From Varibaculum prostatecancerukia (GTDB lineage Bacteria > Actinomycetota > Actinomycetes > Actinomycetales > Actinomycetaceae): 64,000 bases of DNA. Both the position numbers and the translations under genes were made by a program. Below, piece by piece: positions 3,701 through 35,911 of the stretch. The DNA is taken from assembly GCF_943169825.2 (NCBI RefSeq), contig NZ_OW968402.1, positions 372,001 through 436,000 of the forward strand. The letters run 5' to 3'. A model generated the notes under the pieces. It searched no databases. It was not told the DNA's origin and saw only the letters and a program-made list of their open reading frames with translations. Position 1 is the first letter of the stretch; each line of letters starts with the position of its first letter.

Positions 3701-4436
3701 GATTGTTTCCAAGATTGGGGACGAGTTTCTGGGGGAAATTCGCCTCTCTAGTGACCATAAAACCGCGGCGGTAGCCAAGGCTGATGAACTGGGTGTTTAT
3801 CTGCTCAACTGGGATGGCAAGGGCTGGAAACAGTATGGGGAACTACCGGGGCAGCATTACATAATGCGGATTTTAGGGAATCGGGGACTGATGGCGACCG
3901 CCGCTGAGGATGCTTCGGTGGCGATATATACCTTGGATGCCCACCCTAAACGGGTGGGGACTATAAAAACTGAATCTTTGGCTTCTGCGCTGCACTATGA
4001 CGCTAAACGAAAATATCTATATGTGGGAGAAACCGGCGGCAGGATCACTATTAATGATGTGAAGAACCCGAAGAAGCCACGTCTGGTTGCCCAGTTGCGG
4101 GGATTGCAAGCCTCGGTCAATGAACTGGATGTTACTTTGAGCGACAAATACCTGTTCGGGATTTCGTCAGATAAGAAACTGTGGGTGTGGTCTCTGGAGC
4201 CGCTAAACCCCAACCCCTATCTATCTGTGCAAATCGACCAGATTCCTTATGCTATCGCGGACACGCCAGCGGGTTACCTGATTGGCGGGGATAAAGGAGT
4301 GGCAACCGTATATCCGCATTCGATTTTGGAAGCGCGCAAACAGGTTTGTAAAACTATCGGCGAACCAATCAGAAAGCAAGAGTGGGATGCGGTAGCCCCC
4401 GGGGTGCAGCCGGTTTCTGCTTGCAAGAATAAGTAA
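780..4436 (+). CDS. HTH-nSTAND NTPase with transmembrane segment and WD40-type propeller
   Basis: A 1218-residue multidomain protein. Residues about 28-75 resemble a helix-turn-helix (IRDLAKRLDLAPSTLQGWL). The nSTAND1 NTPase follows: the entry motif PYQGLLPYSAQTESVFYGRE at 100-119, the P-loop GASGAGKT at 144-151, and Walker B LLIIDQLED at 202-210. One membrane segment lies near 513-535 (VVTLIATVAGVLLVATIAG), followed by a coiled stretch. Residues about 600-1200 form degenerate WD40-type beta-propeller repeats. STAND ATPases act as ligand-triggered switches in signalling and in some anti-phage systems; this membrane-tethered form is widespread in actinobacteria with no settled function. No toxic effector domain is recognisable. 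The ribosome site before the ATG is weak. It is transcribed alone, away from the response regulator. Confidence 0.8.
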   Translation: MLEIYSSQELAAVLNQARQTKVSAGEKGYSIRDLAKRLDLAPSTLQGWLQGAHLPTLALREKFLQLLDELGLLTPEDNESFWQRTLDTLSRSKQGWIGCPYQGLLPYSAQTESVFYGREQLLGELENAITTAQGKRTKLVIVLGASGAGKTSLLSAGLVGKSCQPSGRLSHYQPRTLSAGEVIKQLPQLLAPADKTQWAKSLLIIDQLEDFLIANPDKVTTALDALYELAETRVVVLGVRSDALDALLQDVRFSRALSSPLIVTAPSVVEYGEIISRPALDAGRKITPELKELLLSQIQESTAEDASVLPQLSNLLLMVWKSTNNSLLTVSDYLKVGGLAGSLEKLADQFYQKLSASEREKLRSLLLSLVEVGEHRVTRRVIALSDVPEEYLELLESLSRERLVVIDGNNTQISHDTLLSSWRTLKGWIEESRIDLGLVRQIQIAAQLWAESGNSVEALRPSLFYAWENRKITRQVAFTKQEEEFLAACAREANRQEEEQQKRIADLRHRNRVVTLIATVAGVLLVATIAGFFQAYHYQKQATASKKDAESRQMALISREVRNSDTNLAAQFALAGLNIANTREARSALIETTSVPIPERILGEGGTVRVAGTSDGKVIARADSKGVVSLWRGGNIKEKPETFSPSSGQLFTLAVRKNAGRILLAVGGQKTASLWDVTAKPRRIGEYGANDVAYSVALTDRYLGFGFLNGKASLWELDQIDKPRAASSFQLDTPTAVTALAISPDQSQVAYGGQPGKLYLSDLSGNNKKLLDLGEGSALDVKFSPDGQELGAALTSREVRRWQARGDNAALSSLGGFFSFVNTLEYDQDQIIVGCSDTTTTIWDRAGRKLTSLPGREIITAATKVGNRIITGSVDGQLRHWPQSVLPLVNEDGYLIDSHTDRKNWVFVSRRLKTPALLKTEKDGLHRMKDPVMPAKFKSATRTEIAEDGEFLVTGTQSGELITWPLGQKGAGSPIVSKIGDEFLGEIRLSSDHKTAAVAKADELGVYLLNWDGKGWKQYGELPGQHYIMRILGNRGLMATAAEDASVAIYTLDAHPKRVGTIKTESLASALHYDAKRKYLYVGETGGRITINDVKNPKKPRLVAQLRGLQASVNELDVTLSDKYLFGISSDKKLWVWSLEPLNPNPYLSVQIDQIPYAIADTPAGYLIGGDKGVATVYPHSILEARKQVCKTIGEPIRKQEWDAVAPGVQPVSACKNK

Positions 4437-20105: not shown

Positions 20106-21503
20106 CTACTGAAACTGGTGATATTGACTAGGTTGCAGCGTACCCTTTTGGAAGGCAGACCAGAAACTCGGGGTCTTCTGTTTATCGAGGAGCACCATTG
20201 CCCCGTGCGCACCATCATAGTAGGCCATATTGGCGATCGGAGGTGCCCCAGTGAGTCTATTCTTAGCGGCGCTGCGGTAGGTGAGTAACAGTTTTCCGAG
20301 CGCCCAGGCACCTGAATCAGTATCGCAAGTAAGGTTTTGGGCGCCTGCGATTGCCAGGTCGCGCTGCTTAAAAGGATTCAAAAAGGTAGAGGGGGTAATC
20401 AGAGTATCTGCCAGTTTGGAAACTACCTGCCGCTGTCGCTCCGCCCTACCAATATCACCTTTAGGGTCTTGCTGGCGCATCCGGGAGAACGCTAGCGCGG
20501 TCGCCCCGTCTGCCTGATGGCAACCGCTTTGCCACTTCAAAGCAGAATCGGGGTCATCAACGTCATAGTCAAGGCAGAGTTCAATTCCTCCCACGACGTC
20601 TACTAGCTGAGTCACCGATCCCATAGTGACTTCCACATAGTGATCAACTTTTACTCCGCTTATCCCTTCGACCGTTTTTACCAGTAGTCTTGGTCCCCCG
20701 AAAGAGTAGGCGGCATTGAGTTTATTTTGGCCATATCCGGGGATAACTACTGCAGTGTCCCGGGGGAGGGATACGATTGCTGACATTGAATTTACTTTGC
20801 GTACCAGCATAATCGAGTCTGAGCGGGCTCCTATATCCGCTCCAGAAACGCCGCCATCGCTACCATCGGAACGTTTATCGGAGCCGGCAATCAGCCAAGT
20901 TTCGCCCTCGCCAGCCGGCAGAGTCGAAAGGGCCTCAACTCGGTTTAACTGTGAATTCGCCAGATGGCAAAGATAGAGTGGCCAGGCAATAACAAAAATA
21001 AGGGTCAGAGTCAGAACTGCTGCGAAAATGCGGCGGAATTTAAAATTGGGGCGAGAAATCCGACGTTCTTTAGTAGACGGAATTGGCTCTAAACGGCTAG
21101 GAGTTTTCGGGCTTTCCTGATCTACCCGTGATTTCTCTGCTCTTTCTTGGGGCAATACCCGGGTGCGCGAGGGGGCTGGACGTCTGGAAAATCGCGAACC
21201 AGTGCGTGATTGCACCGGAATTTCTTGGGCGTTAGCCAAGTGCGTTTCTTCTCGCCGCGTCGGAGTGCTTTCTAGCTTTCTTGAGATTGCAGGGCGAGCA
21301 GCATGCCCACCAGGGGTATGGGAGTGGTGACCTGCTTCCTGAATATTGCCAGGAGAGGAGGATGTTTGTTGATTAGTTTTGTTTGAGCCCCCTGGGCGGA
21401 TTCTTCGTTCCTTAGGGGAATAGGAAGGAGGATTTTCCTGCCTGCGCTGGGGGCGAGGTCGTTTAGGCGGGGTGAATGACTCTGGCAGATCCTGCTGACT
21501 CAA
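20106..21503 (-). CDS. LCP (LytR-CpsA-Psr) family cell-wall ligase
   Basis: 465 residues. A long basic, Pro/Ser-rich cytoplasmic region (about 1-155) precedes one membrane helix (about 158-178). The LCP domain then has WLIAGSDKRSD, the Asp/Arg cluster ARSDSIMLV, SLPRDTAVVIPG and the C-terminal DIGRAERQRQVV. LCP enzymes transfer glycopolymers from polyprenyl carriers to peptidoglycan outside the membrane. The start is TTG at 21503 with AGGGAG nine bases upstream. It lies 36 bases downstream of a second LCP gene, probably in the same transcript. Some family members lack activity; the key Arg residues are present here. Confidence 0.9.
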   Translation of the reverse strand: MSQQDLPESFTPPKRPRPQRRQENPPSYSPKERRIRPGGSNKTNQQTSSSPGNIQEAGHHSHTPGGHAARPAISRKLESTPTRREETHLANAQEIPVQSRTGSRFSRRPAPSRTRVLPQERAEKSRVDQESPKTPSRLEPIPSTKERRISRPNFKFRRIFAAVLTLTLIFVIAWPLYLCHLANSQLNRVEALSTLPAGEGETWLIAGSDKRSDGSDGGVSGADIGARSDSIMLVRKVNSMSAIVSLPRDTAVVIPGYGQNKLNAAYSFGGPRLLVKTVEGISGVKVDHYVEVTMGSVTQLVDVVGGIELCLDYDVDDPDSALKWQSGCHQADGATALAFSRMRQQDPKGDIGRAERQRQVVSKLADTLITPSTFLNPFKQRDLAIAGAQNLTCDTDSGAWALGKLLLTYRSAAKNRLTGAPPIANMAYYDGAHGAMVLLDKQKTPSFWSAFQKGTLQPSQYHQFQ

Positions 21504-21539
21504 GTTGCTTACTCCCTGATTAAAACTTGGGTATCTGAC

Positions 21540-22844
21540 CTATTTTTTCGCTTCGCACTTCCTTTGCAGTTCGACTAGGTCATCGTTTGGTTTCTGAGAA
21601 CTGGTGGCATCCCCGTTATTTTGGGAGCTCGAAGAACTGGTGGTAGGTTCAGGGCTCTTGGTGGCGCTTTCACCGCTGGAGCTGGTTGAGGGGGAAGTTG
21701 AGGTTTCCGCTTCAATAGTGTAAACCTTGCCATTAGCGTCACGAACTTCGATTCCTGCTGGTAGCGGGGTGTCATTGATAAAAGTATCCCAGATAGGTCT
21801 TATTTCATTCGCGTTTACAATCACCCGATTGGGGTCATTTGGTGCAGGATATACCGGCAGGGTAACGAAACGGAGATTCTCTGGCTTTAAGGATTGCAAT
21901 GACCAGCCTAAACCAGCCATTTCGGACACGGAAGATATCCCGTCAGAAATGCTTAATGAGCTCAAGCCGCTACCGATAAAATCGTAAAGCTGATTGAGAG
22001 AGGTTAACATATTTTTTTGCAGGGCGGTGCGCATCATAATCCCCATGACCGCCTGTTGCCGTTCAATCCGTTGCAGGTCAGAACCGTCCGATCCTTGCAC
22101 TCCGTGTCGGACGCGGGCATAACCTAATGCTTGCTTACCATCGAAATGGACGCATCCGGGTTCTAATTCTAGGCCAGAATTCCGCTGGTCATGAATCTCG
22201 GTGGGAATATAGACATTAATCCCTCCCAGGGCATCGATCATGGAAGCAAATCCGCTGAAATCGACCACTACTGATTCGTCAATCCGCATCCCAGAAAGCT
22301 TTTCTACGGTTTTCCAAGTGCAAAGAACCGCTGAAGTCCGGTCACCGTCTTCACCGCCAATGGAGTATGCCCAGTTAAACTGAACTCGTTGCGGTCGCGA
22401 TTGTGTTCCGTCTTTATGTTCACAAGCGGGAACATCAACAATTAAATCCCGGGGTATCGAAACTACGTTTACATGGGAACGATCCTTGGAAATATGCATA
22501 ACCATGGCAGTATCGGATCGCTCTCCCTCGCTGCCATCGTTGATTAGAGCCTGATTGTCTTCCCCGGTGCGAGAATCAGAACCAATAATCAAAATGTTGA
22601 TAGGACGCCCACTATAAGAATCAGGCGGAGTACGTCCTAACTTCTTGGCAGTGCTGATATTGTTCACACGACTAGATAGGTCGTGGTAAACCAAGAAAGC
22701 CCCGGTGAGAGAGAAGGATAGGGCGAACACTAAGGCACTGATTACCCCCCGCAGCAGCCTACGCGGGTAGGGCGGATTAACAGCGTGACGGATGCGCCCT
22801 AGGTAGGTTTTTGCGCTTTTCTTGTGCGAACTCACGTGTGCCAC
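21540..22844 (-). CDS. LCP (LytR-CpsA-Psr) family cell-wall ligase
   Basis: 434 residues. The short basic N-terminus and one membrane helix (about 33-53) are followed by the LCP domain: ILIIGSDSRTGEDNQ, RSDTAMVMHI, VVSIPRDLIVDVPAC, FNWAYSIGGEDG and DLQRIERQQAVMG. These carry the conserved Asp and Arg residues that bind the polyprenyl pyrophosphate head group. The C-terminal 60 residues are Ser/Thr/Pro-rich and probably disordered outside the cell. It is transcribed ahead of the TTG-started LCP gene, giving a tandem pair. The upstream neighbour is ung on the same strand. Confidence 0.9.
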   Translation of the reverse strand: MAHVSSHKKSAKTYLGRIRHAVNPPYPRRLLRGVISALVFALSFSLTGAFLVYHDLSSRVNNISTAKKLGRTPPDSYSGRPINILIIGSDSRTGEDNQALINDGSEGERSDTAMVMHISKDRSHVNVVSIPRDLIVDVPACEHKDGTQSRPQRVQFNWAYSIGGEDGDRTSAVLCTWKTVEKLSGMRIDESVVVDFSGFASMIDALGGINVYIPTEIHDQRNSGLELEPGCVHFDGKQALGYARVRHGVQGSDGSDLQRIERQQAVMGIMMRTALQKNMLTSLNQLYDFIGSGLSSLSISDGISSVSEMAGLGWSLQSLKPENLRFVTLPVYPAPNDPNRVIVNANEIRPIWDTFINDTPLPAGIEVRDANGKVYTIEAETSTSPSTSSSGESATKSPEPTTSSSSSQNNGDATSSQKPNDDLVELQRKCEAKK

Positions 22845-26392: not shown

Positions 26393-27133
26393 TTATTTTC
26401 GGGTTGTGGTTTCTTTGGCTACTTCTAGGAAGGCTTTGGGTTCGTGTGCGAAGCGTCCTAGGAATAGTCCGTCGATGGTGTTGTCGAGTTTGGTTATTAG
26501 TCCTGGTCCTGCTGAGCCGCCGTAGAGAATGGTTAGTGAGGCTAGTTCGGGTAGGCCTTCTCGGATGTTTTGGCATATCTCAGAGACGTATTTTGGGCTT
26601 GCTGGCTGCGCGGCGCCGATAGCCCAGTAGGGTTCATATCCCAGCCATATTTCTGTGGGTGTGGCGTATCTTAATGCGGAGCGTACTTGTTGGATGCATA
26701 GTTTTGCTGCTTGTTTGGGGCTGGTTTTTTCGGGTTCGCCTATGCATAGCAAGGGAGTTATGTTGTTGCGTTTAGCTGCTGCAACTTTTTTGGCGATCAT
26801 GTCGTCGTCTTCACGGAAAATGGTTCTACGTTCCGCGTGACCAATTTCTGCTACTTTGACACCGAAATTTGCTAGATCTGCTCCTGAAACTTCACCGGTA
26901 AAGGCTCCTCGGTCTTCATAGGCTAGATCTTGGGCACCTAGGATAATGTTAGTGTCTTTTAGAATTTCCGCCGCTTGGGGGATGGCTAAAAAGTCCGGCA
27001 GGATCGCCAGGCGTACATTATCGATTAAACCCTCTTCGCTGGCAATTAAACTTTTTAATTCACGACAATATTGTAAAGTACGCGATTGCGAAAAATACAT
27101 TTTTAGGCTTACAGCAGCCACTGGTTTATTCAT
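26393..27133 (-). CDS. triosephosphate-isomerase-like sugar-phosphate isomerase (LerI/EryH-type candidate)
   Basis: 246 residues with a TPI fold and catalytic residues kept: K11 (SLKM instead of NWKM), H99 (EIGHAERR instead of GHSERR) and E167 (GYEPYWAIG). The departures at otherwise near-invariant positions, and its place directly after an RpiB-like gene, argue for a tetrulose-phosphate isomerase rather than the glycolytic enzyme. TPI homologues LerI and EryH convert L-erythrulose-1-phosphate to D-erythrulose-4-phosphate (known from Mycobacterium and Brucella). The 3-prime half of the gene and its downstream flank show strong G+T bias on the plus strand, unlike the rest. A glycolytic role cannot be excluded. 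Confidence 0.75.
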   Translation of the reverse strand: MNKPVAAVSLKMYFSQSRTLQYCRELKSLIASEEGLIDNVRLAILPDFLAIPQAAEILKDTNIILGAQDLAYEDRGAFTGEVSGADLANFGVKVAEIGHAERRTIFREDDDMIAKKVAAAKRNNITPLLCIGEPEKTSPKQAAKLCIQQVRSALRYATPTEIWLGYEPYWAIGAAQPASPKYVSEICQNIREGLPELASLTILYGGSAGPGLITKLDNTIDGLFLGRFAHEPKAFLEVAKETTTRK

Positions 27134-27166
27134 TTAATTCTCCCGAATAGGTGAATAGATAGCTAG

Positions 27167-27601
27167 TTATTCTGCTTCGTATTCACAGATTCGGGCAACC
27201 TTATCTTTGCTGCGCGAATTAGGATCGAAATCGTTTTTAAGATATTCCTCTAAAAACACTTCTGCAGATTTAATACCTACTACCTGGGAACCAATAGCAA
27301 TCATGTTTGCATTATTGCTAAGGGTGGCTCGCTGTGCCTGGTACACATCAGCGATGCAAGCGCAATAAGCTCCTTTTACCTTGTTTGCCGCTATTGAAAC
27401 CCCGATACCGGTACCACAAACCACTACGCCGCGATCATATTCACCAGCTGCCACGGCCTCGGCTACCGCTACCGCAACATTAGCGTAAATAGGATCATCG
27501 GAACCAAAATCTTTAACCTCATGCCCCAAATCCTCAGCCTTAGCCATAAGAGCCTGCTTAAGATCCGTAGCGTTTGGATCACAACCAAAAGCGAGTTTCA
27601 T
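27167..27601 (-). CDS. RpiB/LacAB-family isomerase (DerI/EryI-type candidate)
   Basis: 144 residues. RpiB-family signature: the catalytic Cys in GVVVCGTGIGVSIAANK, then RATLSNNANMIAIGSQVVG. The N-terminal phosphate-binding segment reads GCDPNATDLK, without the His of ribose-5-phosphate isomerase B (SDHAG), pointing to a different substrate. DerI/EryI members of this family convert D-erythrulose-4-phosphate to D-erythrose-4-phosphate. It is transcribed just before the TPI-like gene (33-base gap), which gives a two-step isomerase pair. The promoter lies in the 182-base gap shared with the aldo/keto reductase gene. Confidence 0.75.
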   Translation of the reverse strand: MKLAFGCDPNATDLKQALMAKAEDLGHEVKDFGSDDPIYANVAVAVAEAVAAGEYDRGVVVCGTGIGVSIAANKVKGAYCACIADVYQAQRATLSNNANMIAIGSQVVGIKSAEVFLEEYLKNDFDPNSRSKDKVARICEYEAE

Positions 27602-27783
27602 TATTCACCTAACCTTATTAAAAATAAATACTTACATTCTAGGTTACCTTATCTATAAGAAATTCATACCTTTTAGGTGTTATTTCTTCCTATTTAGGAG
27701 TAATAAAGACATCTATAGAGCACATTCGAGATACTTTAAGATTATGCTGGTTTGTGGTTCACAACTCGTCTAATATGGATGGT

Positions 27784-28737
27784 ATGAAATATAGGCGGTT
27801 AGGTAATTCTGGTCTTCGCGTTTCTGTTTTGGGATATGGCGCAAATAATTTGGGTCGAAAGGGATCGGCTTCTGAAAATATCGCAGGTGCGAAGAAAGTT
27901 GTGGATGCGGCGTTGGATGTAGGCGTGACCTATTTTGACACCGCAAATGTTTACGGGCATGAACCGGGACTATCAGAGACCTTGCTGGGACAGGCACTAG
28001 GTAAGCGGCGTGGCGATGTCGTGATTGCAACGAAATTTGGGTTACCCATGGCAGGAGAGCCTAGGGAATTAGCGCGTGGATCGCGTAGATACATTATGAA
28101 GCAATGCGAAGCATCTTTGTCTCGACTAGGTACTGATTGGATTGATCTTTATTACTATCATTCCCCTGACACCCTCACCCCAATCGATGAAACCATCGAT
28201 GCGTTGGACACTTTGGTAGATCAAGGAAAGATTCGTTACTACGGAGTGTCGAATACTACTGGATGGCAATTGGCGGATGCGTGGCATCATTCACGTCGAG
28301 GGCGACTTGTTGCGACGCAAAATCATTACAATCTTCTCGATCGCCGAGCCGAGCAGGAGATTGTTCCGGCAGCGCAAAATTTTCACTTAGGCCTCGTTCC
28401 GTATTATCCATTGGCGGCAGGTATATTGACAGGAAAATACACTCAGGGAGTGCCCAAAGACGCCCGATTGAAGCCGGGAGATCCAAAACTTGCTGCAGCC
28501 AATATTGAGGTCTTGCGTGAATACCAGGACTTTTGCTCTCAACGCGATATGCAACAGGCATCAGTAGCAATTGCGTGGCTTGCTTCGCAGTCTCCCGTGG
28601 CATCTATTATTGCAGGTGCTACCCGTCCTGAGCAGATTTGTGCAAACGCCCAAGCTGTTGAGCTTGAGTTGAGTGGGGATGATTTAGCTGCGCTAGACAG
28701 GATTTTCCCCCGTCCCGAAAAGGTAGCGTTGTTCTAA
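27784..28737 (+). CDS. aldo/keto reductase
   Basis: 317 residues from the ATG at 27784; a GTG at 27754 would add ten residues and cannot be ruled out. The family start MKYRRLGNSGLRVSVLGYG is clear. Catalytic tetrad: D52 and Y57 in FDTANVYGHE, K84 in ATKFG and the His in YYYHSPDTL. The NADPH-binding loop near IIAGATRPEQI is present. It probably reduces or oxidises a sugar or sugar-phosphate carbonyl. It overlaps the DeoR gene by one base (TAATG), so the two are co-translated, and it sits in the accessory sugar island. Confidence 0.85.
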   Translation: MKYRRLGNSGLRVSVLGYGANNLGRKGSASENIAGAKKVVDAALDVGVTYFDTANVYGHEPGLSETLLGQALGKRRGDVVIATKFGLPMAGEPRELARGSRRYIMKQCEASLSRLGTDWIDLYYYHSPDTLTPIDETIDALDTLVDQGKIRYYGVSNTTGWQLADAWHHSRRGRLVATQNHYNLLDRRAEQEIVPAAQNFHLGLVPYYPLAAGILTGKYTQGVPKDARLKPGDPKLAAANIEVLREYQDFCSQRDMQQASVAIAWLASQSPVASIIAGATRPEQICANAQAVELELSGDDLAALDRIFPRPEKVALF

Positions 28738-29564
28738 TGGATGATGAGATTGAGGCAAAACTTGCTGTTCCACCAACAAAACAAGATTTGAGACGGGACG
28801 CTATTACTGAGCGCGTTCTTGAGATTGGATCTGTCCGCATCGATACGCTGGTTGATGAACTTGGCGTATCGAGGATGACGATTCACCGCGATCTGGATGC
28901 CTTGGAAGCAAGAGGCGTGCTGCGAAAATCTCGGGGTGTCGTAACTGCGGTCGCTTCGAGCCTATTTGAAGCGTCAACTGATTATCGTTTGCGGCAGCAG
29001 TCCGTTGAGAAACGTGCGATTGCCAAACTCGCCTTTGAGTTGATTGAACCCGGGGAAGCGATTGTGCTAGACGACTCGACGACAGGCTTAAATTTAGCCG
29101 AATTGTTGCCCCAGAAAGAACCTTTGACAGTTATTACTAATTTTGGGCGCGTACTCGACATGCTTGGTAGCAAGAGAGGCATCTCCCTTGTCTCTACGGG
29201 GGGAGAATATTACCAGCTGTGCGATGCCTATAAAGGTAACCTGTCGCTTTCGGCTTTGAGTCAATTGAGCGCAGACACCTATTTCATGTCGACACCTGCT
29301 ATCAGTAATGGTGTGTGTTTTCATCAACAGCCTGAGTTAATCCAAGTTAAGCGCGCCATGTTCAAATGCGCGAAGAAGCGTGTGCTAATCGCTGACCATA
29401 CGAAATTTTCTAAGCGAGCGTTGTATTCGATGATGCCAATCAGTGAATTTGACTTTGTAATTTCCGATGCAGCGTTAAGTCGCGAACATGTTACTGAACT
29501 TCGGCGAAGTGGTGTGCAACTAATTATTGCGAAGACGCGCTCGGGAAAAACTGAGATTAGTTAG
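28737..29564 (+). CDS. DeoR/GlpR-family transcriptional regulator
   Basis: 275 residues. The N-terminal winged helix-turn-helix is RIDTLVDELGVSRMTIHRDLDALEARGVLRKSRG. The C-terminal DeoRC sugar-phosphate-sensing domain keeps VLDDSTTGLNLAELL, TVITNFGRVL and LIADHTKFSKRALY. DeoR-type repressors respond to phosphorylated sugars made by the pathway they control. Its translation is coupled to the aldo/keto reductase, so it is the likely local regulator of this island. Which operators it binds is not known from sequence. Confidence 0.88.
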   Translation: MDDEIEAKLAVPPTKQDLRRDAITERVLEIGSVRIDTLVDELGVSRMTIHRDLDALEARGVLRKSRGVVTAVASSLFEASTDYRLRQQSVEKRAIAKLAFELIEPGEAIVLDDSTTGLNLAELLPQKEPLTVITNFGRVLDMLGSKRGISLVSTGGEYYQLCDAYKGNLSLSALSQLSADTYFMSTPAISNGVCFHQQPELIQVKRAMFKCAKKRVLIADHTKFSKRALYSMMPISEFDFVISDAALSREHVTELRRSGVQLIIAKTRSGKTEIS

Positions 29565-29577
29565 TCCCGAACGCGTC
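29534..29577. terminator. weak hairpin between convergent deoR-type and Tm-1-like genes
   Basis: GACGCGCTCGGGA (29534-29546) pairs with TCCCGAACGCGTC (29565-29577) with one mismatch. The loop contains the deoR-type stop codon. There is no U-tract, so termination is uncertain. Confidence 0.35.
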
Positions 29578-29602
29578 TGCACTGGATTCGATGGCGTTCC
29601 TA

Positions 29603-30997
29603 TTACAGTGTAGTCAGCTTATTGTTGAGAATTTTGTCGGAGAAATTATTATATTTTCCGATTTCCCATTCACCATTAATCATGTCCCACACTATGGTGT
29701 TCAACAGGTCAGCGAATTCTTCGTCAAGAATATGGTGATCTGTCCAGATGAGATCTACCACATTTGTATCGACCTTCGACCACATCCGCTTCAGCATGGC
29801 AGTTGCCCGGCGCGACCACTGTGGATGCTTCTCATCGGGTTCCCAAACCGGCCCGTCGCCATTCCCTTCTGCCCAGCCGCGCTCACGCGTACACAGGGCA
29901 GCTTCTTGGTCATAAGCGGACCAGCCGCGCATAGGAATTACGAATGCGCAGGGCCCCTTAGAACCATTCAAGGTATCGGCGAGAAAATCAGAGAGTTCGA
30001 TAACTTCTGGAATGGTAGGAACCATCTCAGTGACGTTCTCATTGTGAATGTAAGGCTTACCTGTATCGCGGAAGCCTTTACGCTTGCCGGTGCGGAAGTC
30101 CTCTACATATTCTTCCTTCATGGTTTCAAACGCGCCATAGGCGCATTGATCCAAACCTCCAGGTACAACTACATTGGGGATACCCATATCCGGCGCAGCA
30201 GTCATACGTTCTCCCTGCCAAGTTTTCGGTGTTCCATAGACGGAGTCGTACATATTATTGGTTAATTCACCGGGCGTCATATCTACAACAGCAGTGATAT
30301 CACCGGAGCGAATCAAATCTTCCATCGTGGCGCCAACTCCCACAGCGTGGAAAGTCGAGCAGTCCCATCCATGATCGTTGAAGAACTTAGTAATTCGCAT
30401 CTGGGTAGGTGTCGTCGTTCCATAGCTAGTAACAGCGGCAAGCGGACGTCCAATCGGCGGGTCGTCAACCTTGGCCATGGCAACAATACCGGCGCAAGCT
30501 TGCGTGACAATCTTTGAGGTCACTGCAGTGATACCTTGTTCAGCGGTTGGCGAGACAATGAAAATATCTTTATTACCCAGCCATCCTGACACGTCAGATG
30601 ATGCCATATCGGTCATCAGAATCTTGGGAACCCCAAATGGTAGCGCCCTCATCGCAATCGAAACGGTGGTGGATCCTACTGAACCCGCCCAACTAATGAT
30701 ACCGTCGCATCGTCCTTCATCATGTAGCTTGAGAGCCATTTGCGCGCCGGCTTCCCCAATTTTTTTAATCGCGTCAGCTCGCGGACCAGCAAAGACTTCA
30801 TCCATGTCCAAAGAAGCCAACTCGCCAACCTCCTGGTTGGAAATGTCAGCAAAATCTACACTGCCACCAAGCGAAAGATCCATAATCAACGGTTCACCAC
30901 CGTTGGCACGTACCTGTTCGGCAACGAATTGGATTTCCGTACCTTTTGTGTTGCACATCCCCGTACACAAGATGACGGGTTTATCTTTTTTATTCAT
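29603..30997 (-). CDS. UPF0261 / Tm-1-like ATP-binding domain protein
   Basis: 464 residues of the UPF0261 family. It starts KPVILCTGMCNTKGTEIQFVAEQV and has ISWAGSVGSTTVSIAMRALPFGVPKILMTDMAS and VVPGGLDQCAYGAF. The plant homologue is the N-terminal half of tomato Tm-1, where this domain binds ATP; the bacterial function is unassigned. RBS AAGGAG precedes the ATG. It is the last gene of a four-gene minus-strand operon, right after the TIM-barrel protein that corresponds to the C-terminal half of Tm-1. Because no classical kinase is present, it is a candidate ATP-using step in the pathway (inference). Confidence 0.85.
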   Translation of the reverse strand: MNKKDKPVILCTGMCNTKGTEIQFVAEQVRANGGEPLIMDLSLGGSVDFADISNQEVGELASLDMDEVFAGPRADAIKKIGEAGAQMALKLHDEGRCDGIISWAGSVGSTTVSIAMRALPFGVPKILMTDMASSDVSGWLGNKDIFIVSPTAEQGITAVTSKIVTQACAGIVAMAKVDDPPIGRPLAAVTSYGTTTPTQMRITKFFNDHGWDCSTFHAVGVGATMEDLIRSGDITAVVDMTPGELTNNMYDSVYGTPKTWQGERMTAAPDMGIPNVVVPGGLDQCAYGAFETMKEEYVEDFRTGKRKGFRDTGKPYIHNENVTEMVPTIPEVIELSDFLADTLNGSKGPCAFVIPMRGWSAYDQEAALCTRERGWAEGNGDGPVWEPDEKHPQWSRRATAMLKRMWSKVDTNVVDLIWTDHHILDEEFADLLNTIVWDMINGEWEIGKYNNFSDKILNNKLTTL

Positions 30998-31024
30998 CTG
31001 TTACTCCTTTGTCACAGGTGACTA

Positions 31025-31855
31025 CTAGTCATTGAGTATGTTTTTGTATTCACGAGTAATTGCCAAAATTGCTTTTTCAATTGGCATGCGCTCCGCAGCA
31101 GAACCGCCGATGAAACCATGCGCAGAAGTATTTTTAATTACGTGCGCTGCTTCGGCGGGACCTTCGATGGGGCCGCCGTGTGCGAATAGGATGACATCCG
31201 GATTCTCTTGGAGAGCCGCGTCGAACATTTCTTGGCTGCGTTCGGTGGCTTCTTCGAGTGTCATATCAGATGCGGCGCCTTTGAGCCCACCGACTGTAGA
31301 ACCAAAGTGAGTGGCGATGGAATGGGCACCGACGCTGGCCATCACTTTTGCCTCTTCGGGCGTAAAGGCATAAGCGAGGGTAAACATATCCATCTTTACA
31401 GCTGTTTCAATGAATTCGACTTCGCGCTTCCAGCCAATGCCGATCTTGTCCATCTGCGCTACCGTTTCATCTCCGTAAATCTTGATCATGAACGGGTTAA
31501 TTCCGCTCACGCCGGCATCCCGCAGCCGCTCCAGATGCTCTTTATGCGGCAACAGCGGATTAAAGGCTCCAGATAGGGTCATGACCGGCGCTTCAGAAAC
31601 ATTGGCGACGATTTCGGGAAGTAAATCAAAAAGGACCTGGTTGATATCACTGTTCGGCATGAGTGCAGAGAGAGATCCTTGCCCCTTCATCCGCCAGTAG
31701 CTCGTCCCGGAGGCGATAATTAAATCAGCCCCGCCCATTTCCTGTAGTTTTGCAGATAGTCCGAATCCACAGTTCGGTGCGAATAACGGCCTGCCCGCGT
31801 CAATCTCTGCGCGTAAACGGGAGGTAACTTCTTTTGCCGTGTAGAGTTTTGCCAT
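31025..31855 (-). CDS. TIM-barrel protein of the PEP-hydrolase-like family (Tm-1 C-terminal half)
   Basis: 276 residues from the ATG at 31855, chosen for the AAAGGAG just upstream; an ATG 33 bases earlier lacks one. The N-terminus GRPLFAPNCGFGLSAKLQEMGGADLIIASGTSYWRMKG and VMTLSGAFNPLLP, ATHFGSTVGGLKG and ILFAHGGPIEGPAEA match the phosphoenolpyruvate hydrolase-like TIM-barrel family (also called TIM-barrel signal transduction protein). In plants and fungi this domain is fused behind UPF0261. Here the two are separate neighbours, 27 bases apart. Activity on phosphoenolpyruvate is a family label only; an aldolase or lyase role is equally possible. Confidence 0.85.
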   Translation of the reverse strand: MAKLYTAKEVTSRLRAEIDAGRPLFAPNCGFGLSAKLQEMGGADLIIASGTSYWRMKGQGSLSALMPNSDINQVLFDLLPEIVANVSEAPVMTLSGAFNPLLPHKEHLERLRDAGVSGINPFMIKIYGDETVAQMDKIGIGWKREVEFIETAVKMDMFTLAYAFTPEEAKVMASVGAHSIATHFGSTVGGLKGAASDMTLEEATERSQEMFDAALQENPDVILFAHGGPIEGPAEAAHVIKNTSAHGFIGGSAAERMPIEKAILAITREYKNILND

Positions 31856-31898
31856 TGCATTCTCCTTTGAATAATCGGGACCGGTCATTAGGTTCCGG

Positions 31899-32768
31899 TC
31901 AGAGTTGGTAGCGATTCAAAAATGCAGACGAATTGACGTCACGAATTGCGACGACGTCGTCTGTTGAAATCACAGGATCGGGGGTCTCCTGCAACTCCGC
32001 AATAAGCAAGTCGAGGTTACCCAGTGTTTTTTCGTAACTATAGAGGGGCATATCAGATCCGAATAGAATTCGATCAACCGCCCCCGCCCACGTCTTGACC
32101 ATCGTAATGAGATGGCGCAAGGGGTGGGTCTGGAAGTTTGGATCGCGTCCAATTACTGAGCTGATATCTACGTATACATTGGAGTGTTTCCGCAGTAATC
32201 CCGCCGTTCGAGAAAAGTCGATACGCCCCGCATGCCCCAGGATGGCTGGCATTTGCGGAAAATCGCAAAATACTGAGTCAAAGCGATTGACGCTCGTATA
32301 CTGATCATTGAGCGGAAGGACGCCGATATCACCCGAGTGAAAAAGGACGGGTTTCTGTGCTTCTTCCAGAACTTTATAAATTGGCCACAGCTGCGGATCA
32401 TCTACACCCATATTTTGAAATGCGCCGTGGAATTTTAAACCTTTATGGCCGTTCGCGAGTGCTTCCGCCACAATTTTCTCCGCATGTGGGCTGCGCGGAT
32501 TCACACAACAAAACGGAATCAAACGCTCAGGATATTTGTTACATTCGCGTAAAACGAAATCATTGATGCGTCTAATATGTGCATCAGATAAATCTGGTTC
32601 ATATGCAAGGGCGACCGCAATCGACAAATTAATGCCGTTTTTATCCATAGCAGCGATTAAAGCATCGGCATCGCAGGAAAGTGAACGGCTGGAGTCGTAG
32701 CCGCTAATCTGAGGTGGAATATCCGATTCTTCCCAAATATGGGAGTGGACGTCGACGCGTTTGCTCAT
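31899..32768 (-). CDS. amidohydrolase-family (Amidohydrolase_2) hydrolase
   Basis: 289 residues, metal-dependent TIM barrel. Metal ligands are visible: VHSHIW (H8, H10), VLFHSGD (H144), ILGHAGR (H179) and LFGSDMP (D239). The family includes sugar-lactone hydrolases and decarboxylases. A lactonase that opens an aldonolactone would fit a carbohydrate-acid pathway, but this is inference. Its ATG overlaps the stop of the RuBisCO-like gene as ATGA, which implies coupled translation and shared function. Confidence 0.85.
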   Translation of the reverse strand: MSKRVDVHSHIWEESDIPPQISGYDSSRSLSCDADALIAAMDKNGINLSIAVALAYEPDLSDAHIRRINDFVLRECNKYPERLIPFCCVNPRSPHAEKIVAEALANGHKGLKFHGAFQNMGVDDPQLWPIYKVLEEAQKPVLFHSGDIGVLPLNDQYTSVNRFDSVFCDFPQMPAILGHAGRIDFSRTAGLLRKHSNVYVDISSVIGRDPNFQTHPLRHLITMVKTWAGAVDRILFGSDMPLYSYEKTLGNLDLLIAELQETPDPVISTDDVVAIRDVNSSAFLNRYQL

Positions 32769-34015
32769 TTGACTACTCCAAATACATCTAAAGCGGTTGC
32801 TAATTCGCTATGTTCGCGAGCTGCTTCTTCCAATGTCACACCATCCATGTAGGCGTCAATTGCTTGGCGCATCGCCCTAACGCCTGCCGCAGGTCCTTGG
32901 GGGTGTCCTTGAATGGCTCCACCTGATGCCAGAACGATATCTGTGCCTAAGTCCTCTAAATATCTGTATACGACCCCGGGCTTAACTCCCCCCCCAACGA
33001 CCGGGAACGACGGCTGAAGGTTGCTCATTGGCGTGAGCATTTTGCGCGCGGTAGCTAGATATGCCGCTTTCCGCATGGGATAACCACTGTAGGGAGTGTT
33101 AATAACCGCCATGTCGGCACCCACGAGCCTTGGGAAAAACCCGAGCGCTAAGGCAGCTGACATGCCGGAGGAAGCGTTTTCGTAATAGGTATTAGCCGAG
33201 GCATAGTGGCCGAGAATTGGCACATCAAACTTTTCTCGCAATTCGACGACGCTGCCGTACCCGACCGCGGCATAGCACACCATGAGTGCGCGCGCTCCGG
33301 CATTGATAGCGCGCTTGGCATTTTCGAATAAAGCCGTGCCTTGCGCAGTGATATTAGGTACGTAGATGGTACGGTGGCCAGTTTCTTCAAAAGCTTGCTG
33401 TGCAGCTTTGTTATAAGCGGTAACACGCTGATCAATAGGAGAGAATTCGGGGTCTCCCATGAGTTCATCATCTTTGATTAGATCAGGGCCGCCTAATGCT
33501 GTCTCGCGGAAGATTTCACTTCCCTGAGCTGGGGTAAGACCAGTGCATGGTTTGATCATGTTGAGTAGAAGCGGGCGCGAAGGGATGCCGAGAAGCTTTC
33601 TGATCCCAGCCACACCATGCTTTGGACCTGGAAGCTTGCTTGTCATCGACGCAGGGAGCTGAACGTCAACGAGTTTTGCCGCCATGGAAGTCGAGGCGTC
33701 ATTGCCCAGCAGCGAGGTAAAAAGCCTCGGTATGTCAGCTCCTATGCTCACCGCCGGCAAGGAAAGAGTTGCGGTGTACGTTGTGGTATTTCCGCCTTCG
33801 GTTACCAGATCGCTGGGATCCAGGGTTTTAATGTCGACGACTTCACCTTGGTAGTTGTCAACCATTTCTTGTGTTAGACCGGGAACATCAACCCAGGTTC
33901 CAATAGTTTGACCGATTGCGAAAGCGCGAACTTTTTCTAGGGGGTCAACATCGGCAGGGATGGAAAAGGTATATGTCGCAAGAACCGCGTCATTCTTGTT
34001 GGAAGCCTGTGGCAT
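32765..34015 (-). CDS. RuBisCO-like protein (form IV)
   Basis: 416 residues from the ATG at 34015; AAGGAG lies just upstream inside a longer open frame. It aligns along the whole RuBisCO large chain. LNMIKPCTGL holds K155 (equivalent of K175). GGPDLIKDDELM holds K181, D183 and E184, the carbamylated Lys and two Mg ligands. ILGHYASA holds H270. ASGGAIQGHPQGPAAGVRA is the C-terminal phosphate-binding loop. The loop-6 region reads NTPYSGYPM with no Lys matching K334, and the usual S379 position is Gly (VVGGGVKPG), so carboxylation of RuBP is not expected. Known relatives include OiaX, which decarboxylates 3-oxo-isoapionate-4-phosphate to L-erythrulose-1-phosphate. It is the first gene of the operon. 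Confidence 0.9.
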   Translation of the reverse strand: MPQASNKNDAVLATYTFSIPADVDPLEKVRAFAIGQTIGTWVDVPGLTQEMVDNYQGEVVDIKTLDPSDLVTEGGNTTTYTATLSLPAVSIGADIPRLFTSLLGNDASTSMAAKLVDVQLPASMTSKLPGPKHGVAGIRKLLGIPSRPLLLNMIKPCTGLTPAQGSEIFRETALGGPDLIKDDELMGDPEFSPIDQRVTAYNKAAQQAFEETGHRTIYVPNITAQGTALFENAKRAINAGARALMVCYAAVGYGSVVELREKFDVPILGHYASANTYYENASSGMSAALALGFFPRLVGADMAVINTPYSGYPMRKAAYLATARKMLTPMSNLQPSFPVVGGGVKPGVVYRYLEDLGTDIVLASGGAIQGHPQGPAAGVRAMRQAIDAYMDGVTLEEAAREHSELATALDVFGVVK

Positions 34016-34042
34016 GTTGCTCCTTCGCATTGCTTAAAATGT

Positions 34043-34061
34043 TACATGTACATGATATATG
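34043..34061. promoter_or_regulatory. palindromic candidate operator between RLP operon and MBL gene
   Basis: Overlapping palindromes TACATGTA (34043-34050) and ATGTACAT (34046-34053), followed by CATGATATATG, lie in the 126-base divergent gap. They sit where an operator could control both directions. The binding regulator is not known. Confidence 0.35.
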
Positions 34062-34075
34062 AACCAATGCGGATG

Positions 34076-34104
34076 TTGCAAGTATGTATAAAAAATGTGA
34101 TATT
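34076..34104 (+). promoter_or_regulatory. candidate promoter of the MBL-fold gene
   Basis: TTGCAA (34076-34081), a 17-base spacer, then GATATT (34099-34104), about 38 bases before the ATG at 34142. The match is plausible but modest for a sigma-70-type promoter, and it lies just downstream of the palindrome. Confidence 0.35.
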
Positions 34105-34141
34105 TTGGTATAGAGCCCATTTATTTTTAAGGATTAGAGCT

Positions 34142-35209
34142 ATGCAAAAGGTTGACGCACGTATTATTCTTCTCGGTACAGCAGGTGGCGCAGTGACTTG
34201 GGGAAGTGCGGATTCGTCAGCTATGTGCCGCTACGGGACTTCAACGGCTCTAGTTATTGGTGGAAAGATTTACGTCGTCGATTTCGGTATGGGTGTTGCG
34301 CGGCAGTTAACTAGAGCGAACCCCCTAGGGCGTCCGGAATCACAAATATTCGAAGACTTGCAAACGTTGTTTATCACGCATATGCATTCTGATCACACAT
34401 TAGATCTGTCAAACCTGTTGTTGTGCGGATATAACCAGGGGTGGCCGTCGCATCGAGTGGAAGTGTATGGTCCTTGGGACAGAGTTCTTAGCCCTAGTTT
34501 TTACTCGGATTTGCCAGAGTCGGATGTATGGACGCCAGGTGCTGAAAAATTCGTCAATGATCTACTGGTCGCATTTGAGGCCGAAACTTTAGACAGAGTC
34601 TATGGCGCAAAAAAACGCTCTCCGCAGGACATGATTGTCGGCGTTAATGTCCAACGTCCTGGGGTAATAGACCGCGACACTCATGGGAAGTTTTGCCAAT
34701 CTGGGGAAGCTGACCCTGAGGTAAAACTTAACCACAATGAAGCGCCTGTGGATCCGTTCTTCGTTTACGAAGATGATCGCGTGTATGTGACCGCCACACT
34801 GGCGGAACATGGAACTATGTATCCTGCATTTGCCTACCGTTTTGACACGGATGAGGGATCCGTAGTCTTCTCTGGAGATACTGGTCCTTCTGAGAACCTA
34901 GTACGACTTGCTGCGGACGCAAATGTGCTGATTCATGAAGTAATTGATCCAAACTATGCGCGTTGGCAATTTGGGAATCCTCCATATACCCCCAAGCAGC
35001 AGCAAGCACTAGATGTCGTATTTAAGAAACACTGTTCGGTCGAAGTTGTGGGGACGATTGCCCAACGCTGCTCAGTGCAAACATTGGTGCTTAACCATTT
35101 TGTTCCGGGTAACCTGCCACAAGGATTATGGGCTTCGAAAGTGAAGGGATTCGATGGGCGCATTATCGAAGGTCGCGACCTGGACACCGTGTATCTTGCT
35201 AACGTTTAG
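34142..35209 (+). CDS. metallo-beta-lactamase-fold hydrolase (AtsA/RNase Z-like)
   Basis: 355 residues from the ATG at 34142, which has AAGGA eight bases upstream; an in-frame ATG 96 bases earlier gives a tail unlike the family. The metal motif is ITHMHSDHT (H80, H82, D84, H85). VVFSGDTGPSENLVRLAADANVLIHE supplies the bridging Asp region and LNHFVPG the last His. It begins IILLGTAGGAVTW, like arylsulfatase/RNase Z-type members. The likely activity is hydrolysis of an ester, lactone or phosphodiester bond. It is divergent from the RuBisCO-like operon and shares its control region, so it probably belongs to the same pathway. Confidence 0.85.
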   Translation: MQKVDARIILLGTAGGAVTWGSADSSAMCRYGTSTALVIGGKIYVVDFGMGVARQLTRANPLGRPESQIFEDLQTLFITHMHSDHTLDLSNLLLCGYNQGWPSHRVEVYGPWDRVLSPSFYSDLPESDVWTPGAEKFVNDLLVAFEAETLDRVYGAKKRSPQDMIVGVNVQRPGVIDRDTHGKFCQSGEADPEVKLNHNEAPVDPFFVYEDDRVYVTATLAEHGTMYPAFAYRFDTDEGSVVFSGDTGPSENLVRLAADANVLIHEVIDPNYARWQFGNPPYTPKQQQALDVVFKKHCSVEVVGTIAQRCSVQTLVLNHFVPGNLPQGLWASKVKGFDGRIIEGRDLDTVYLANV

Positions 35210-35620: not shown

Positions 35621-35911
35621 TTAACCAGCAAACATGGCGGCCGCGCCACTTTCGGCATCTTCATAACTGACGGAAGCAGCCTGCAAGGCTTGGCCGATGG
35701 AATCGAGTGCGGCTTCCATCTGAGCTTGGGCAGCGCGCCAACGGGTTGCACAATCGGCGAAGGAACTGGCGGCTGCCCCGGTCCAGGATCCTTGCAGGGA
35801 CTGTACTTGTGCCATCATGGCTGCGGCGTCGGTGCGCAGTTGCCCGGCAATAGCGGCCGCCTGAGCTCCTGCTGCGGACACCTGACTAGAATCTACATTG
35901 AACTGTGCCAT
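35621..35911 (-). CDS. WXG100-family (ESAT-6-like) type VII secretion substrate, orphan
   Basis: 96 residues, helical and Ala/Gln-rich. The WxG turn is SWTGAAASSF (W43, G45). A type VII export signal of the form YxxxD/E is present at Y83-E87 (YEDAE). WXG100 proteins form helical hairpin dimers exported by ESX/T7SS machines. No EccC, EccB, EccD, EccE or partner WXG100 gene lies in the window, so the secretion machine must be elsewhere or absent. A good RBS (AGGAGA) precedes the ATG. Confidence 0.92.
   Translation of the reverse strand: MAQFNVDSSQVSAAGAQAAAIAGQLRTDAAAMMAQVQSLQGSWTGAAASSFADCATRWRAAQAQMEAALDSIGQALQAASVSYEDAESGAAAMFAG

Follow-up and report, generated by a model that had tools for sequence, protein, structure and literature searches.

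A gene island combining a RuBisCO-like protein with separate Tm-1-like genes in Varibaculum prostatecancerukia, a candidate module for the catabolism of a small carbohydrate acid

We analysed a window of 64,000 nucleotides (G000:C1:372001-436000, the whole stretch considered here) from the 2.21 Mb single-contig genome of Varibaculum prostatecancerukia, in which nine genes form an island around a RuBisCO-like protein (RLP). Apart from the RLP, the island encodes a PF04909 amidohydrolase, a metallo-beta-lactamase (MBL)-fold hydrolase, an aldo/keto reductase (AKR), a DeoR-family regulator, a second TIM-family and a second RpiB/LacAB-family isomerase, termed TIM2 and RpiB2, and two adjacent genes, UPF0261 and PF09370, which are homologous to the two halves of plant Tm-1, a tomato virus-resistance factor being a fusion, whereas the island carries separate genes (Table 1). 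On balance we lean towards a model in which the island was gained by horizontal transfer and serves the breakdown of a small carbohydrate acid or lactone; in this module the UPF0261 protein probably takes the place of the kinase and the isomerase pair would lead to erythrose-4-phosphate.

The island and its borders

Pfam assigned all nine genes to the families originally predicted for them within 26393-35209. The predicted tight packing of the minus-strand operon was confirmed, the RLP and amidohydrolase genes overlapping by 4 nt and the following gaps being 10 and 27 nt; the AKR and DeoR genes overlap by 1 nt and the gap between RpiB2 and TIM2 is 33 nt. As had been proposed, the MBL and RLP genes are transcribed divergently, with 15 bp between them according to the list of open reading frames (ORFs). 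We think that the true start of the MBL gene is the ATG at 34142, following AAGGA, so that the two genes would share about 111 bp of control region. Comparison of the control regions for a common operator motif returned one shared 9-mer, A+T-rich, and nothing more, scans for promoters and terminators gave fewer sites than in shuffles, and searches for Rfam families and tRNAs returned no match.

Among the six congeners the RLP is found in two, i.e. in its own genome and in one of five others (G004, 98%). In three of the four RLP-less congeners (G002, G003 and G005; G001, in which the gene on the right falls at the end of a contig, was left out) a chaperonin gene and a WXG100-like gene are separated by about 110-195 bp, and in G004 the whole island sits between the same two genes. 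As these flanking genes adjoin in the three empty sites, we regard 26393-35209 as the ends of a real insertion. The WXG100-like gene at the right border, named by eye, is an ORF of 96 aa (35621-35911, minus strand); tblastn of a neighbouring frame matched this stretch at 76% in G004 and at 54-60% in the empty sites. The GC content of the island genes (0.457-0.525) compared to the three genes on the left (0.538-0.564) and the four on the right (0.501-0.614) is a weak sign of insertion. The AKR is 88-90% identical to the AKRs of the two related islands.

Table 1. Genes and features of the island, with positions in the window and the Pfam matches on which the assignments rest.
Feature	Position	Strand	Evidence
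TIM2, second TIM-family isomerase	26393..27133	(-)	PF00121, 189.7 bits
RpiB2, second RpiB/LacAB-family isomerase	27167..27601	(-)	PF02502 (LacAB_rpiB), 140.2 bits
Aldo/keto reductase (AKR)	27754..28737	(+)	PF00248 Aldo_ket_red, 239.6 bits
DeoR-family regulator	28737..29564	(+)	PF00455, 142.9 bits; PF08220, 42.5 bits
UPF0261 protein, long form (Tm-1 N-terminal half)	29603..30997	(-)	PF06792, 119 bits; PF23189, 145.2 bits
PF09370 TIM-barrel protein ('PEP hydrolase-like', Tm-1 C-terminal half)	31025..31888	(-)	PF09370, 250.1 bits
Amidohydrolase (Amidohydro_2)	31899..32768	(-)	PF04909, 95.3 bits
RuBisCO-like protein (RLP; RuBisCO_large)	32765..34030	(-)	PF00016, 146.2 bits
Control region between the divergent RLP operon and MBL gene, shared by both, bounds inferred	34031..34141		sequence
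MBL-fold hydrolase (Lactamase_B_2)	34046..35209, start probably 34142	(+)	PF12706, 39.5 bits

The RLP and the isomerase pair

The RLP has the features of form IV RuBisCO, i.e. a RuBisCO_large domain, the Lys/Asp/Glu metal triad and the first catalytic Lys, with K160, K186, D188 and E189 being kept, no second catalytic Lys, and Cys162 at the position of Lys177 in RuBisCO. These equivalences (first and second catalytic Lys, carbamate Lys, Lys177) follow the RuBisCO numbering. The original prediction likened the RLP to OiaX, which, as Carter et al. are said to have reported in 2018, yields L-erythrulose-1-phosphate, LerI and DerI then leading to erythrose-4-phosphate. This likeness did not hold at the level of the enzyme. 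In NCBIfam the RLP reaches 198.1 bits against the OiaX model NF042437 with a cut-off of 700, the active-site loops read HYASA and GGGVKP compared to HRNGW and SGQWGG in two annotated OiaX proteins, and in a tree of 120 RLPs it falls into a set of nine Actinomycetota rows (support 100) nested in a 46-row clade (100), the two OiaX rows being far away; this tree was built quickly and has long branches, unsure deep forks and an outgroup not forming one clade. Score, loops and tree position led us to reject plain OiaX membership, and both cut-offs together with the alignment led us to reject membership in MtnW, the two models of which gave 306.7 bits (cut-off 409) and 275 bits (cut-off 513.6). Because of the scores below cut-off and the separate clade, we call the protein a non-OiaX, non-MtnW RLP without assigned reaction, for which an OiaX-like reaction would be an analogy. 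Decarboxylation and transcarboxylation/hydrolysis of 3-oxo-isoapionate-4-phosphate are known for RLPs (PMC6302742).

TIM2 and RpiB2 are not the housekeeping copies, as a canonical TPI (G000:C1:1096175, 318.5 bits) and a canonical RpiB (G000:C1:1052172, 160.6 bits) are encoded elsewhere in the genome and, for TIM2, as the tree also shows. Within the six congeners a second TIM copy occurs only in the two with the RLP. A search with TIM2 in 13 genomes found at least two TIMs in all nine RLP bearers, several of which have larger genomes so that their second TIM need not be linked to the RLP, and one TIM in each of the four congeners without RLP. In a TIM tree of 33 rows, 29 rows are split at 100/98 from the TPI side, which consists of four rows only, three TPIs and a Cryobacterium TIM. 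The larger side holds TIM2 with two close relatives, all 21 named RLP-linked TIMs, the TIMs of two annotated OiaX clusters, the DhaK-linked TIMs of Arthrobacter and Listeria plasmids and a Shinella TIM, placing TIM2 apart from TPI and on the side of the OiaX-cluster TIMs, as expected for an enzyme of the LerI/EryH type. Within this side, the TIMs of the two OiaX clusters form a group with 17 of the 21 RLP-linked ones (98/95), and TIM2 lies outside that clade, nearest to the DhaK-linked Arthrobacter TIM (98/93). RpiB2 scores 143.9 bits against the RpiB subfamily PRK05571, above its cut-off of 135. These sequence relationships suggest TIM2 being a probable erythrulose-phosphate isomerase of the LerI/EryH kind and RpiB2 a probable D-erythrulose-4-phosphate isomerase of the DerI/EryI kind; conversion of tetrulose phosphate to erythrose-4-phosphate as the ending of the route is supported at the family level, better for TIM2 than for RpiB2. 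The pathways with a DhaK-type kinase in Arthrobacter (L220), which contributes the nearest relative of TIM2 outside the islands in the tree, and Listeria (L225) have a similar TIM and RpiB pair, and differ from the island in showing no RLP in the stretches viewed.

The UPF0261 protein and the kinase position

The original prediction stated that the DUF1537 kinase of the OiaX route is lacking, and indeed DUF1537 has no match in the whole genome, nor in that of G004. The further conclusion of a missing kinase we revise, as the position is probably filled by the UPF0261 protein itself. Both of its Pfam matches exceed the gathering score, 27 each, and confirm it as member of the UPF0261/Tm-1 family. 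In a VIA structure comparison its AF2 model (pLDDT 88.5) matched Tm-1 (3wrw) with Z 37.3 over 385 residues (root mean square deviation (rmsd) 4.2) and 9mpy with Z 28.7 over 390 residues (rmsd 7.5, 25% identity), followed by another Tm-1 entry (Z 23.8) and then by rows at Z 12; below the Tm-1 and 9mpy rows no kinase family rose above background, a result which excludes nothing. PDB entry 9mpy shows Saro_1862, a protein with UPF0261 domain from Novosphingobium aromaticivorans, in complex with acetovanillone. According to PMC13101465, the catabolism of acetovanillone in this organism begins with the single-component kinase MarK. MarK probably is Saro_1862, an identity that we infer. Saro_1862 shares the UPF0261 fold with the island protein and differs from it in being a single-component enzyme with a phenolic as target, as far as indicated by the ligand and the citing paper. 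HpeHI and its homologue AcvAB belong to a different, two-component kind (PMC12167813, PMC9618137), and HpeHI, described as RPH-like in PMC12167813, was rejected as model for UPF0261/PF09370. Homology of UPF0261 to a DUF1537 kinase was likewise rejected (hhalign probability 0.2, one kinase compared).

We compared 82 RLP loci, comprising the window, G004 and the best 80 of at least 536 named relatives, cut at 10 kb or at contig ends. The greedy gene-calling script overlooked the RLP itself in some loci, and gene families were defined by blastp clustering and labelled from a single Pfam-tested member per cluster. UPF0261 without FGGY kinase or phosphotransferase system (PTS) occurs in 33 loci, FGGY or PTS without UPF0261 in 28, both in one (L139) and neither in 20, the PTS label also taking in clusters 23 and 26, which carry no annotation. 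The mutual exclusion gives a Fisher p of 6.5e-8 (uncorrected), and of 5e-6, 0.0097 and 0.25 if loci are pooled by RLP identity at 90%, 75% and 65%, respectively; on the tree the two alternatives changed at least ten times. Also among the six Actinomycetota RLPs grouping with those of the islands, four adjoin an FGGY gene (L076, L077, L082, L086). Since UPF0261 alternates with FGGY or PTS in relatives, and since the studied family member 9mpy/MarK points in the same direction, we propose UPF0261 being probably the ATP-dependent kinase of the pathway.

The PF09370 protein, a relative of which is 2p10 (E 1.3e-47), is the usual partner of UPF0261 in the family as well. Among 151 family genomes 22 encode UPF0261, three of these being island bearers; of the other 19, 12 were viewed, PF09370 adjoining UPF0261 in 11 of them and the remaining one having a class II aldolase in this place. 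Near RLPs, 32 named UPF0261 loci show PF09370 in 12, class II aldolase in 14, both in none and neither in six. Some of the island-free UPF0261-PF09370 pairs (L195-L207 except L201) have a second PF09370 gene nearby, and ten neighbours tested in L198 and L207 revealed no common theme. Our literature search found nothing pairing UPF0261 with 'RuBisCO-like protein', and no work on enzyme function of UPF0261/PF09370 among the matches listed.

That the neighbours travel together, as predicted, applies to distant genomes and to some RLP lineages only. Among the matches listed, the RLP clade occurs in many Bacillota, Actinomycetota and other genomes, RpiB being a neighbour in 25 and TIM in 21 of the 80 named loci. 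The nearest named relative of the RLP is that of Arcanobacterium urinimassiliense (88%), in which seven island genes lie together in a different genomic setting (L073/L201), TIM2 and RpiB2 lying on that contig as well, at a distance of about 165 kb from the RLP operon, next to a GntP permease, a short-chain dehydrogenase/reductase and a GntR-like regulator. The same genome has a DUF1537 kinase near several GntP-like pieces (G450:C2:600722-606447, L209), which may be broken or duplicated copies. The order RLP-amidohydrolase-PF09370-UPF0261 is kept as an operon in A. urinimassiliense and in the Bacillota Diplocloster agilis/modestus (L088, L090) and Anaerobium acetethylicum (L102), and with one extra gene in between in Faecalicatena contorta (L081); L128, L059 and L060 contain the same four families in a different order, L060 and L128 carrying an identical RLP. 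These Bacillota operons resemble the island further in having RpiB and TIM (L088, L090, L102) and an MBL gene of another cluster (L081, L088, L090; confirmed by Pfam for L088), with L088 and L090 thus combining all of these; unlike the island, they show no relative of its AKR beside them, and their flanking genes differ, those of L088 including e.g. an SLC13-type transporter and an arylsulfotransferase. A second set comprises 35 regions, some of them short, in which the RLPs are more distant or unnamed; besides L059 and L060 it includes the G004 island (L053) and a region with relatives of RLP, PF09370, UPF0261, amidohydrolase, TIM and MBL (L057).

Other arrangements were observed. In three Bacillota metagenome-assembled genomes (MAGs), two of them labelled Syntrophomonas, regions of about 10-15.2 kb (L116, L119, L122) contain RLP, PF09370, a ComB-type gene, a long UPF0261 and a second PF09370, with RpiB or TIM not found nearby; the ComB-type gene, also present in L128, is a 2-phosphosulpholactate phosphatase (PF04029, one member tested). 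In MAGs of Proteobacteria and Deltaproteobacteria (L125, L127) the RLP adjoins two PF09370 genes, a thiamine diphosphate-dependent enzyme and a TRAP solute-binding protein. Ten Bacillota loci (L074, L078-L080, L087, L089, L092-L094, L111) show RLP and RpiB, mostly with TIM, next to galactitol-type PTS genes, which may represent a PTS-dependent route for a polyol or acid not yet recognised.

A proposed pathway and its competitors

Under the model that we rate slightly above an even chance, the MBL hydrolase and/or the amidohydrolase would open or trim the substrate, and UPF0261 with its PF09370 partner would phosphorylate it using ATP, in place of DUF1537, FGGY or PTS. The RLP would then convert a phosphorylated beta-oxo acid to a tetrulose phosphate, most simply by an OiaX-like decarboxylation, this being the weakest step, and TIM2 and RpiB2 would interconvert L-erythrulose-1-phosphate, D-erythrulose-4-phosphate and D-erythrose-4-phosphate, the latter entering the pentose phosphate pathway. 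DeoR is the probable regulator of the island, the AKR may handle an aldehyde or ketone intermediate, and import would be achieved by a transporter encoded elsewhere in the genome.

Both hydrolases fit more than one activity. In the fold comparison the model of the amidohydrolase (pLDDT 82.4) is closest to a PF04909-type protein (2f6k, Z 25.2); hydroxybenzoate-type decarboxylases (Z about 24) and ACMSD follow at most about 2 Z units lower. Residues 36-145 match 5-carboxyvanillate decarboxylase in sequence (E 8e-7); H8, H10, H144, H179 and D239 are invariant in seven of seven sequences. As these folds score nearly equally, the modelled enzyme may be either a lactonase or a decarboxylase. In the translation of the MBL gene we read an HxHxDH motif; the protein scored below the cut-offs of the RNase Z, GntH and cyclic phosphodiesterase models and is a candidate lactonase or cyclic phosphodiesterase.

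The system is of a known kind, comprising RLP, kinase and two isomerases; what would be new is the different RLP clade and the different kinase. Among four annotated OiaX loci viewed, two on Rhizobium plasmids (L221, L222), both reached through a TIM query, contain OiaX, a four-carbon acid sugar kinase (DUF1537), TIM and RpiB. Like these, the island has an RLP by a small-molecule kinase candidate and a TIM and RpiB pair, with related TIMs, the link of RLP to TIM and RpiB being found and the DUF1537 kinase not. In contrast to the OiaX route, the island RLP belongs to another clade, the genome lacks DUF1537, the island adds PF09370, amidohydrolase and MBL, and, as the original prediction had noted, it has no transporter family among its Pfam matches.

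Several results weigh against the proposed module. Regarding the RLP, we found no reported reaction for its clade, in a literature search that did not cover key papers; the OiaX loci L171 and L173 show no kinase, TIM or RpiB beside OiaX; and beyond the RLP itself no island protein is matched in 23 of the 35 regions, short ones among them, so that the link of the RLP to its neighbours is limited to some RLP lineages. Regarding the isomerases, TIM2 is below the curated TPI cut-off, RpiB2 reaches 124.8 bits against the DerI model NF051858 (rhizobial D-erythrulose-4-phosphate isomerase) with a cut-off of 240, and in the RpiB tree, the canonical branch of which is very long, it falls together with a Cryobacterium RpiB and four Bacillota rows (99), the RpiBs of the OiaX clusters lying elsewhere. 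Regarding UPF0261, 12 phylogenetically independent pairs of loci, a comparison of low power, gave on average 3.6 opposite and 0.1 same (median p 0.25), so the alternation with kinases is striking and repeated, but its independence from ancestry is not proven. GlpA/GlpB occur in none of the 34 loci with UPF0261 and in 13 of 48 without, and MBL in 21 of 34 and none of 48, respectively (three clusters only, missing e.g. the MBL gene of L073, with the window and G004 labelled by hand; independent pairs 7.4 same, 0 opposite, median p 0.016); therefore the whole front end, perhaps the substrate, changes. Six of nine genomes with RLP and UPF0261 hold one to three DUF1537 copies elsewhere (G000, G004 and G460 none), and thus UPF0261 is not everywhere a substitute for an absent DUF1537; in the V. 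prostatecancerukia genome, DUF1537 was the only kinase sought elsewhere, no search for other kinases being made. Finally, a near-invariant Asp of UPF0261 (position 16) is Asn in the Arcanobacterium proteins, and a relative of the A. urinimassiliense GntP was looked for in G000 and G004 with none found.

Among the alternatives, the one we give roughly a one-in-four standing is that the RLP clade converged on decarboxylation of 3-oxo-isoapionate-4-phosphate, the island serving D-apionate catabolism. The order RLP, DUF1537 kinase, TIM and RpiB in L221 and L222, and the grouping of their TIMs with most RLP-linked TIMs, are in line with this; the different active-site loops and the galactitol-type PTS or FGGY front ends of relatives, which suggest other substrates, argue against it, as does the absence from the island of the phosphogluconate-dehydrogenase-type gene annotated in those OiaX clusters. 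This gene we take to be the D-apionate oxidoisomerase.

Somewhat less probable is UPF0261 being a scaffold or regulator of the PF09370 enzyme, with phosphate transferred by another kinase of the genome. PMC5028733 mentions a suggested role of the PF09370 domain in signal recognition and the binding of Tm-1 to viral replication proteins, and the DUF1537 copies of the six genomes would offer such a kinase. The evidence from 9mpy/MarK and the alternation of UPF0261 with kinases in RLP loci speak for UPF0261 being the kinase itself, as does its NCBI family name, 'Tm-1-like ATP-binding'.

Unlikely in our view is a division of the island, in which UPF0261, PF09370 and amidohydrolase act on an aromatic (phenolic) compound and RLP, TIM and RpiB form a separate sugar route, e.g. 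for an apiosylated phenolic glycoside split into its halves. Acetovanillone in 9mpy, the likeness of the amidohydrolase to 5-carboxyvanillate decarboxylase in sequence and to hydroxybenzoate-type decarboxylases in fold, and the UPF0261-PF09370 pairs occurring without RLP would suit it. Yet the RLP and amidohydrolase genes overlap within one operon, Pfam revealed no ring-cleavage family in the island, and there are loci, e.g. L095, L100 and L104, in which UPF0261 adjoins RLP and sugar ABC transporters but amidohydrolase and PF09370 are absent. A methionine-salvage variant, with the RLP as MtnW-like enolase/isomerase on a thiomethyl sugar phosphate, we consider highly improbable: MtnW models are the best NCBIfam matches of the RLP and MtnW structures top its PDB profile list, but both scores miss their cut-offs, the RLP clade has Asn110 where the MtnW row has Lys after Gly, no further methionine-salvage family is among the island Pfam matches, and the erythrulose-type isomerases would be left without a role.

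Elsewhere in the window we observed an nSTAND1 NTPase with helix-turn-helix and WD40-type repeats (780-4436, plus strand), a possible defence or signalling protein, and a tandem pair of LytR-CpsA-Psr genes (20106-22844, minus strand).

For the family, a tentative generalisation, somewhat short of an even chance, is that UPF0261 with a PF09370 or class II aldolase partner forms general ATP-dependent kinase modules for small molecules, the targets including carbohydrate acids, here displacing FGGY, PTS and DUF1537 before a tetrulose-phosphate-making RLP clade. Our analysis replaces the 'missing kinase' by a named candidate, UPF0261, and provides a testable role for UPF0261 and PF09370, the halves of plant Tm-1 with uncertain function, as well as for this RLP clade. 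If true, the ancestral job of plant Tm-1 would be the phosphorylation and cleavage of metabolites.

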